Below, one piece after another: positions 31,426 through 35,210 of a stretch of 35,210 bases of DNA. The notes below the pieces were generated by a model that searched no databases, was not told the origin of the DNA, and saw nothing but the letters and a program-made list of their open reading frames with translations. A program made the translations under genes and the position numbers. Positions within the stretch are counted from its first letter, which is position 1; each line of letters opens with the position of its first letter. The stretch lies in the NCBI GenBank assembly GCA_903919125.1, contig CAIXGS010000012.1, positions 91,706 to 126,915 of the forward strand, in the 5' to 3' direction. The stretch comes from an uncultured Spartobacteria bacterium (lineage in GTDB: Bacteria; Verrucomicrobiota; Verrucomicrobiia; Chthoniobacterales; Chthoniobacteraceae).

Positions 31426-33171
31426 TCAGCGGATAAGTTCGCGAACCGGAATCACCGCCAGTTCATTCGCCGCATGACTCTTGTGCGTGTAGCCGACATA
31501 CAGCTTCCCGTCGTGCTCGATGGCGTAGGGATAGCTGAAGTCGGCGCGTTCACTGGAGACTCCGGGGCCTTCCGGGAAGATGGAACGCCGGATGACAAAA
31601 ACTTTGCTGAAAACGGATTCTCCAGGCTTGCTGACAGCGATGGTCAATGGTGAACGCTTACCACCGGTGTCGGCGGTGGTGGTGCAGACGAGGTAACGTT
31701 GACCGGTGCTGAGAGTGCCCGCGTAGGGCTTACTCGTCGCCATCGGCAGGTTCGAAGGTAGCGCCGGACTCCACGTGCGGCCAAAGTCGTCGCTGGTGGC
31801 GATGAGCGCGAGCGCCTTGCCGCCGTAGCGCGAGATGTTCGTGATGTGACTACCTTTCACGATCACGGTAGACTCCCCCCAGACGCTTCGCAGCCGACGA
31901 TCGAGAGGCAGAACGACGAGGTCCCACTTCGTGAAGTCGTCGCCATGACTGATCGCCACCGCAGGCGGATCGCCGCTGAAACCATACCCCTTCGAGACTC
32001 GGGCGCCGGACATAATCCAGTTGCCATCGTCCATTTTCTGCGGCTCCTGCATTGGCCAGAATCCATCGTTTAGGACAGTCCCCTTTGCCTGCCACTGGCC
32101 TGTCGTTTCATCGAGCAGGTAGGCGCGGGTGTGCGTGCGCTGGAAGTGATCGTAAAACGCGCCCATGAAGGCCCAGAGATTGCCGCCGTGCGAAAGAAAG
32201 ACGCCGTGGCTCACGCCGAGATTTCCTTCGCCCTCATCCATCACGACAGGTGCGCTCCACGTTTTCCCTGCGTCATCGCTTACACGCGCATGCGCTTCTT
32301 CGGTGGACGTGTTCTCATCACCTTTGTTGAAGCCGTAGGACGCGTAGAACCGCCCTTTGTGCCACGCAAGACCAACGCCGAGCGTCCACTTCGCTCCATC
32401 GGAGTCGGGTGCCTTATTCTTAATTACATAAAATTCAGCACCTTGCACTGCCGCCAATTCTGCCGAGTTTGGCAAAACCACGCGCTCATCCCACAACGGA
32501 ACTGCCGCCGCCACCGGCAGCGGAACCTCGTGCGTGGCGCTCACCGGTCGGTAATTCGCCGCTATCTCTTCCGCGCTCCACGCTGTCGCCTCAAACCGCG
32601 CCTCATCCAAAGCTCCGTGAAACGCTTGGAGCGCCCCGCCCTTATCAACGATTCCGCCAAGCGTGATGGGAGCCTGCGTGACTGGGACGGGCCTCTTGAG
32701 CACTACTTCCCCCGCCTGCTTGCCGTTCAGGTGCAATGCCGCCTTTCCCGCACTGACGGTCAGCGTCGCTAAGTGCCAGTGTCCGGCCTCCAACGCTTCC
32801 TTGCTCGTAATGGTGGCCCACCCGCCCTGCTGCACATAGGCCTTTAATTTGCCATCCGGCTCGACCGTGAGCGTCCACTGCCGCTCGTTGAGTGAATAAC
32901 GATTCTTCCCTGCGATCACCTGCTGCCCGTCATTTAGTGTGTATGGATTGAACCATACAGAAAAGGTGAAGCCGTCAGTGCCATTCAACGCCGCCGAGTC
33001 CTTTAATTCGATCGCCGAAGAGCCATCGAGCATGAGCGATTTGTCGCGAACACCGCTCGCCAGGTTCGCCGTGCCCACGACAGCGATTTGAGAATCCACC
33101 GCATCGAGCGGCCAGTGTTCCGCCATACAGGTGAGTGGTAAAGAGAGGATGCCAAGGAGGAGACGTTTCAT
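31426..33171 (-). CDS. Secreted LamG-domain sialidase-like protein
   Basis: The 581-residue protein has a signal peptide (MKRLLLGILSLPLTCMAEH). A concanavalin-like LamG domain follows at about residues 20-215, with GFTFSVWFNPYTL and GHWHLATLTVSAGKAALHLNGKQAG typical of LamG_3. Residues ~230-580 form a six-bladed beta-propeller sialidase-like domain with two readable Asp boxes, SDDAGKTW and SDDFGRTW. Members of this group hydrolyse sialic acid or other exo-glycosides, but several PVC-group members are not true sialidases, and the catalytic Tyr/Glu/Arg set cannot be confirmed by eye. It starts inside the stop codon of the upstream FGE-sialidase gene (ATGA overlap), so the two are translationally coupled. 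Expected location is periplasmic or extracellular. Confidence 0.88.
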   Translation of the reverse strand: MKRLLLGILSLPLTCMAEHWPLDAVDSQIAVVGTANLASGVRDKSLMLDGSSAIELKDSAALNGTDGFTFSVWFNPYTLNDGQQVIAGKNRYSLNERQWTLTVEPDGKLKAYVQQGGWATITSKEALEAGHWHLATLTVSAGKAALHLNGKQAGEVVLKRPVPVTQAPITLGGIVDKGGALQAFHGALDEARFEATAWSAEEIAANYRPVSATHEVPLPVAAAVPLWDERVVLPNSAELAAVQGAEFYVIKNKAPDSDGAKWTLGVGLAWHKGRFYASYGFNKGDENTSTEEAHARVSDDAGKTWSAPVVMDEGEGNLGVSHGVFLSHGGNLWAFMGAFYDHFQRTHTRAYLLDETTGQWQAKGTVLNDGFWPMQEPQKMDDGNWIMSGARVSKGYGFSGDPPAVAISHGDDFTKWDLVVLPLDRRLRSVWGESTVIVKGSHITNISRYGGKALALIATSDDFGRTWSPALPSNLPMATSKPYAGTLSTGQRYLVCTTTADTGGKRSPLTIAVSKPGESVFSKVFVIRRSIFPEGPGVSSERADFSYPYAIEHDGKLYVGYTHKSHAANELAVIPVRELIR

Positions 33172-35116
33172 GGTGCGGGAGGGAGTTGTTTGAGCCAGGT
33201 CAGATTGAAAACGTAGTGGTTGCGGCTGCTAAGGAGCTGGATGCGTCCGTCGCGCGTCTGAGTGGCGGTGAGGTAGCCGCCAATTTCGGCCATGGTGGGG
33301 CTAAGATGGAAGAGACCCCGTCCGTCGGTGCCCGGCACTGTGCGGGCGGGTCCGCCTGGCGTGATGAGCCGGCGCACGGGCCAGGTCTTGCCCTCATCGA
33401 ACGAGACGGCGGCGAAAAGGCCGTAGCCGTTGAAATTGCTGCCATCGGCGGCCTTAAAGGAGAGGCCGCGGCGATTCTTCCAGTTCAGCCCCTGATCGGT
33501 GAAGGAACAGAGCAGAATCGGCCCTTCTTTAAGCCGCAGAAGCAAGGGGCGCTGGCCGCTTGTGACCGCCGGAAACTCGCTGACCTCAACCTGCCACGAC
33601 TTGCCGAGGTCGCTGCTAAAGCTGAGTGCGAGCTTAAATTCAAAATGCTCTTGATCGGGCAGCGGATCGTTGCGGCTGAGCGCCATAATACGTCCATCAG
33701 CCAGTTCCACGAGCGGCGCATGGATGCCAGGGTAGCGAGCATAGACGCCCCCGGGACGTTGATCGCGCTCCGGCTTCACAAGCTGGTTGTGCTGCCAAGT
33801 ACGGCCGCTATCCTTACTAAAGATGAGGCTGGTGGTGCGAGAATCATGCGATGCTACGAGCGTGCCGTCGCGTAAGCGGATCACCTGGTTGCCGAGCTCG
33901 CCATGAGGGAAAATCGCGAGTGGCTTGGACCACGTTGCGCCATTGTTGTTAGAGGTGCGCACGATGTTTTCGCAGTAGCCGCGGGCGAAGTGGAATAGAG
34001 TCTTATCGCCGTCCCACCAAAGCTTGGGCGCGTGATCGTTCACATCAGGTCCGTCGAAAAAGGGCGATGCCTCTTCCCATTGCGTAGAGCCAAATCGAAG
34101 CCGGCTTGCCACGTTGCAAAGTTCGGTACCGATCTCCATCGTGCAGGAAAACCACGTCGCCAGCAGGTCGCCATTCGGGCACTCGACCACCGACGGACTG
34201 TGGTTATGCCGGGAGTAAAGCGGCCCATAGGAGTCCACCGGTATCTTCACGAACTCGTTTGGCCCGCTGAAAAACGGCACGTCCTCCGCCTGTGTTTGGA
34301 TCTTCGGCACCGACTGGCTCACGCGCTGCGCATTCAGCGGCGCGGAGGATGGCGGCAGCATCTGACCCTTCGGTAATTCACCCATCACCACTCGGAAGCC
34401 GGTCGTGGGACTGCGCGATTCAGGAATCCACGCTGAACGATTTGCCGAGCGCAGCAAGTAGCTCAGCAAAGAATGCGACCCGCCACGAAATACCCGGAAA
34501 TCGCCATCCACTCGACCCAACGGGTCAGTTTGCGGACCTGCTTCATAGGGTCCGTACCAGTCGAGGCACCACTCTGCCACGTTTCCATGCATGTCGTGGA
34601 GTCCCCACGCATTCGCTGGTGTTTCCGCGACACGGAGCGATGGCACTTGATTCATTGGGCGATACTCGACGGGCATTAGACTCCCCTCGGGGAAGAAAAG
34701 CGGACGCCAGTTGTCATCGCGGAACCACTTCTGAAAGCCCTTGGGCAAAGTCTCGCCGCTGCTGAATAATGTCTTTGAGTCTGCGCGACACGCATACTCC
34801 CACTCCGCCTCAGTCGGTAGCCGATAAGTACGGCCCTCCTTTTTCGAGAGCCACACGCAAAACTCCGTCGCCTCATTCCAGCTTACCTCCGTCACCGCTT
34901 CGTCATCCGCCGCCCGCTTCTGATGCTTCGCTTGAAACTGCCGATACTGTCCCGCCGTCACCTCAGTCACCCCAAGATAGAACTCCTGTGTGATTCTAAC
35001 CGGGTGCGCCGGTCGCTCATCGAAGTCGGCGAGGTTCGTTTCCTCCGGGTGCTTCGTGAAAAAGTAGTCATACCAAATCTTGAAGAAAACTGGTTCTTCT
35101 CTCCCGGGAACGCGGA
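33168..35116 (-). CDS. FGE-like domain plus sialidase-like propeller (3' exon; 5' part beyond window, behind a group II intron)
   Basis: The coding sequence runs from an intron junction at about 35116 to the stop at 33168. The first ~240 codons are a formylglycine-generating-enzyme-like (SUMF1/DUF323) domain: FYLGVTEVTAGQYRQF, YRLPTEAEWEYACRA, DMHGNVAEWCLDWYG, RVFRGGSHSLLSYLLRSANR. In genuine FGE the last motif carries two copper-binding cysteines (GGSxxCxxxxC); here leucines stand in their place. A sialidase-like propeller follows (~34200-33190) with Asp boxes SNNNGATW, SKDSGRTW, SSDLGKSW, SFDEGKTW. The frame would stay open up to 35195, but that part translates intron domains V and VI and should not be annotated as protein. 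It is coupled to the LamG-sialidase gene by a 4-bp ATGA overlap. Confidence 0.82.
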
Positions 35117-35210
35117 ATAGAGTAGGGAGACGCGTTTGGTAAACCACCCACACGCGTCTCCCCCTCATCGAACCGGACGGGCGGATTTCCCGCATCCGGC
35201 TCTCGGAGGC
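35117..35210 (-). mobile_element. 3' end of a group II intron (domains V and VI), truncated by the window edge
   Basis: On the minus strand, 35202-35170 forms domain V, beginning GAGCCGGATGCGG, a GAAA-containing loop, and ending CCGTCCGGTTC. It has the catalytic AGC triad, the paired GAGCCGGA/TCCGGTTC base and the two-nucleotide bulge. It is followed by domain VI, an 11-bp perfect stem (35152-35162 with 35125-35135) and then CTACTCTAT ending at 35117, with an unpaired A at 35123, seven bases from the end, in the place of the branch-point adenosine. The intron ends AT just before the FGE-sialidase exon. The rest, probably with a reverse transcriptase, lies beyond the window. Confidence 0.82.

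Follow-up and report, generated by a model that had tools for sequence, protein, structure and literature searches.

RmInt1 is a multicopy group II intron of Sinorhizobium meliloti whose home site lies in ISRm2011-2, a multicopy insertion sequence of the IS630 family (PMC5894124). The intron described here resembles it, in that a multicopy group II intron is housed in a multicopy transposable element, but the host of RmInt1 is an insertion sequence, whereas here it is a short, non-coding MITE hairpin. The D1-D4 model RF02005 is matched by relatives of our intron, and RmInt1 is set beside them by description only. Group IIC introns carry a CGC triad, use an IBS1-EBS1 pairing of 3-4 bp and lie downstream of a stem-loop (PMC7923331). 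Their placement at terminator and attC hairpins is comparable, since an inverted repeat serves as the insertion site. Our intron, in contrast, has AGC in domain V, its pairing extends over 7-8 bp in four of five relatives, and its target is cut inside the 3' arm of the hairpin; these features rule out a group IIC/attC intron. Ca. Thiomargarita nelsonii carries a 'MITEtron' in its dsrA gene, where a group I intron contains a MITE (PMC4853749). Both there and here an intron and a MITE are nested in a metabolic gene, although here it is a group II intron that lies inside the MITE. Insertion sequences that target REP palindromes (PMC1525189) also use a repeated palindrome as a landing site, but they are DNA transposons and not retrohoming introns. 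Introns in transposons are already known; our searches of the openly licensed literature turned up no group II intron with a MITE hairpin or a REP as its home site.

Results

The 3' end of a group II intron at the window edge

The analysed stretch, referred to as the window, comprises 35,210 nt of an uncultured Spartobacteria bacterium, and its last position, 35210, is also the end of contig C12. The final 94 nt of a group II intron, consisting of domains V and VI and ending in CTACTCTAT, occupy positions 35117-35210 on the minus strand, as judged from RF00029 and ten genomic copies; the remainder of the intron lies beyond the contig. Using cmscan against Rfam, RF00029 was matched over its whole length (model positions 1-77) at 35117-35204 on the minus strand, at 54.1 bits, where the cutoff is 40 (E=4.2e-8). 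The 94-nt segment folds much more strongly than its shuffles (z -6.4). The domain V hairpin, GAGCCGGATGCGGGAAATCCGCCCGTCCGGTTC (35170-35202, minus strand), is defined by its fold and by the covariance-model match, and begins with GAGCCGG, which contains the AGC triad. Domain VI (35117-35165, minus strand) is defined by the covariance-model match and the fold of its main stem; its bulge was read from the sequence and presents an unpaired A, the candidate branch point, 7 bases from the 3' end of CCCTACTCTAT. The hairpins that the original prediction had described, with their AGC triad and bulged A, are therefore real, and the covariance-model check that it named for domain V returned a match above the cutoff. 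Relatives of the intron in other genomes of the family also end at CTACTCTAT, after which mostly T and then unrelated sequence follow. Because the similarity among relatives stops there, CTACTCTAT at 35117 is the true 3' splice site.

Elsewhere in the genome (G000:C30:81867-81943; L008, L018), another, divergent group II domain V/VI scores 48.7 bits. It follows closely on the stop codon of a gene for a Clp-type ATPase, no reverse transcriptase was found near it, and it is probably a remnant.

The intron sits in a MITE and not directly in the gene

The original prediction had the sialidase gene reading in frame directly from the intron end. The frame is indeed open, but the next 46 nt (35071-35116, minus strand) are the right part of a MITE, from the hairpin arm TCCGCG to the terminal repeat ending in TTTGGTA, as recognized from intron-free copies of the repeat and from the same sequence after other intron copies. 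The gene itself resumes only at 35070/35069.

The repeat is a MITE: it is short and non-coding, has terminal inverted repeats and a target-site duplication, and occurs in many copies. It is about 160 bp in length, has TACC...GGTA ends, contains two GCGGAGC...GCTCCGC hairpins, and folds as a whole into one long hairpin (z -5.6). A 90-nt repeat probe gave 43 matches in this genome, many of them without intron, and more than 20 uninterrupted MITE copies are present. Identical 3-bp TNA target-site duplications flank four of five isolated full copies, and many copies are approximately 100% identical. Across the 40 genomes of the family that were searched, the MITE was present in 9 of the 12 genomes of the genus and in none of the 28 outside it. 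Introns in the same MITE also occur in genomes G007 and G013.

A sialidase gene split between two contigs

The gene following the MITE is the 3' part (633 codons; 33168-35069, minus strand) of an FGE-sulfatase-like and BNR sialidase-like gene, with matches to PF03781 and PF13088. The open reading frame that contains it, 33168-35195, encodes an FGE-sulfatase domain lacking the first 24 model positions, together with the BNR domain. Homologues align from 35069 onward and have about 24 more FGE-domain residues upstream of that point. Its closest named homologues are mostly from Verrucomicrobiota (Verrucomicrobiaceae, Prosthecobacter and similar MAGs). The window contains two tandem sialidase-like genes, at 31426-33171 and 33168-35069, which overlap by 4 bases at 33168-33171; the downstream one bears a LamG domain.

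The missing N-terminal piece was located at the end of contig C17 (G000:C17:8264-8401), where it runs up to MGQEGPTS. There, the coding sequence ending in TNSIGMKLVPIPSGSFVMGQEGPTS is followed by TGA, a complete MITE (MITE1), TCA, the left 114 nt of a second MITE (MITE2), and the 5' end of the intron. On the window side, the intron is followed by the right 46 nt of a common-type MITE, by TGA (35068-35070, minus strand; the right copy of the 3-bp target-site duplication, whose left copy precedes MITE1 on C17), and by CTACTTT, from which the protein continues as (D)YFFTKHPEE. The 5' half of the sialidase thus ends at precisely the point from which the window half continues, and TGA flanks the break on either side. 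Approximately 57 homologous loci are uninterrupted from MGQ(D/E)GP through the breakpoint. A script count of 60 was reduced to this number by excluding the two loci of the window itself and one match with a gap of 16 residues; a few genes are represented twice, by loci in two collections. On C17, the upstream gene is similar to genes that neighbor homologous sialidases. MITE1 is 94% identical to the common MITE form, and its right arm differs from the right arm in the window, which supports a tandem arrangement of two MITEs. The spacer between MITE1 and MITE2 is TCA, unlike the outer TGA.

We infer that C17 and C12 are physically adjacent. No contig spans the junction from C17 through the intron to C12, and the adjacency rests on protein continuity and on the matching TGA. 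Contig C17 (8.6 kb; L013) runs into the same intron at both of its ends, and both MITE flanks there are TCA. It is possible that C17 reads as a circle by chance; the continuity of the sialidase, however, favors a connection between the end of C17 and C12.

With both sides of the break at hand, it can be judged whether the intron might be a direct, phase-1 interruption of the sialidase gene whose removal by splicing leaves an intact mRNA. The intron does lie in the gene's orientation, and an open frame leads from 35116 into the gene. Nevertheless, MITE sequence makes up the 46 nt that follow the intron, and homologues align to the gene from 35069 on only. Moreover, when the exons are joined in silico, 320+ nt of MITE are retained, a stop codon occurs within MITE2 and the frame is lost for the downstream half, so that splicing cannot restore the gene. 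We regard direct insertion as highly improbable. What stands of the intron proposed within a sialidase gene is its group II identity, its sense orientation and its position within the gene; it is inserted in a MITE, however, and lacks the phase-1 structure. Likewise, of the upstream parts that were to be looked for, the 5' exon and the intron 5' end exist on another contig, but the reverse transcriptase interior is absent from the assembly. What breaks the FGE-sialidase gene is therefore the tandem MITE pair, in whose second member the intron rides as a passenger.

Ten intron copies share one insertion point

The 3' part of the intron is identical in ten places of the genome. Most of these are at contig ends, as expected, because the repeat breaks the assembly. 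All ten 3' junctions consist of CTACTCTAT followed by TCCGCGNTCCCRGG. The 5' end, defined as GTGCG by comparing complete relatives, agrees with the GTGYG signature of mobile group II introns at each of ten 5' junctions in the genome, all of which consist of GCGGAGCTNGGGC followed by GTGCGCTGGGG. Every intron copy is inserted in a MITE hairpin at …GCGGAGCTNGGGC^TCCGCG…, where the caret marks the insertion point, and copies occupy either of the two hairpins of the MITE at this same point.

Aligned on their 3' ends, the ten copies fall into a few types whose members continue to resemble each other for 46-60 nt beyond CTACTCTAT; in nine copies, TGGTAT marks the point after which the flanks diverge. 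A shared flank of this kind could be an intron-owned 3' extension, a domain VII of the B.c.I4 type, which would move the true 3' splice site to the position after GGTAT. A 47-nt sequence is common to four intron copies, with divergence directly after GGTAT, and 3' extensions of this kind, 53-56 nt in length, have been described (PMC3261151). The same sequence, however, occurs more than 20 times without the intron, attached to the other half of the MITE. Furthermore, the "extensions" are unrelated between copies, most being one or the other MITE end, and close relatives of the intron end at CTACTCTAT. A domain VII extension can be dismissed almost entirely, and we retain the flank as MITE sequence.

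Intron and MITE might alternatively have transposed as one composite unit, as opposed to repeated retrohoming into resident MITEs. Identical arms are shared by several of the MITEs that carry an intron (3' arms of type 1 in four and of type 2 in two), and the MITE appears to have been recently active, given its many copies of about 100% identity. Introns are, on the other hand, present in both hairpins and in several diverged MITE variants (C41, C10, C74, C75, C55 and C56). At least about five independent intron insertions are needed to account for this distribution, and we consider composite transposition unlikely, favoring repeated insertion into resident MITEs.

An intact intron interior, including the EBS1 loop and the reverse transcriptase domain, was not found in this genome's assembly. 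Its reverse transcriptase is represented only by the C-terminal 71 and 38 codons in the sister copies on C10 and C79, which are 97% identical to the related intron L078 of genome G007. The window copy contains no reverse transcriptase sequence and no D1-D4; it is presumably the end of a full-length intron. Judging from what is known of the family, the intron would splice and be mobile. An RVT_1 match on C75 was set aside as a candidate for the intron's own reverse transcriptase, as it looks like that of a diversity-generating retroelement downstream of an intron copy. This gene (L011, G000:C75, 744-1860) has an LPIGSLTSQ motif, lies just downstream of another copy of the intron, and is followed by an asparagine-rich, template-like stretch.

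EBS1-IBS1 pairing in related introns

Pairing between EBS1 and IBS1 is the rule for group II introns. A variable loop of domain I was compared with the intron's own 5' exon in five related introns. The loop of L076, TTCTAAA, pairs with TTTAGAA, and that of L078, GCTGGGG, pairs with CCCCAGC. Among all 120 permutations of the five relatives, the assignment of each intron to its own exon scored best. Four relatives pair over 7-8 bp, and pairing in L077 is weak, at 4 bp. Both L076 and L078 match the reverse transcriptase/maturase model TIGR04416. The D1-D4 model RF02005 was matched by L076 at 54.8 bits, over the cutoff, and by L078 at 47.6 bits, just under the cutoff of 49. In L076, L078, L075 and L081, differing EBS1 loops match differing target sites, forming a natural retargeting series.

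Pairing of the EBS1 loop with each copy's own IBS1, as seen in these relatives, would explain targeting of the MITE. The same rule is expected to hold for the copies in this genome.

Discussion

It is very likely, in our assessment, that the window edge carries a mobile group II intron whose home site is a MITE hairpin, residing in a tandem MITE pair that splits an FGE-sialidase gene. According to this model, the tandem pair would have inserted into the gene after ...MGQEGPTS, thereby splitting it. Intron RNA would then recognize the MITE hairpin through base pairs between its EBS1 loop and the IBS1 of the MITE, GCTNGGGC^T, and would reverse-splice at that point, so that the second MITE came to be occupied by an intron in the sense orientation of the gene. 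The order of events was probably MITE first and intron later.

A broader evolutionary reading is that an intron lineage of one verrucomicrobial genus re-tuned its EBS1 to a genus-specific MITE hairpin, in two genomes on opposite strands of one and the same hairpin, with bursts of the MITE creating landing sites. We lean toward this reading by a slight degree.

Conclusions

What appeared to be an intron-containing glycosidase is corrected to a gene split by MITEs. Annotation from the window alone gave the gene a false N-terminus, read through the intron and the MITE. An intron family with several targets and matching EBS1 loops provides a natural series for the study of target change. With a MITE hairpin as home site, the host is spared damage only to the extent that the MITEs themselves spare it. 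If the re-tuning reading is true, this intron would be a retroelement that feeds on a family of DNA transposons.
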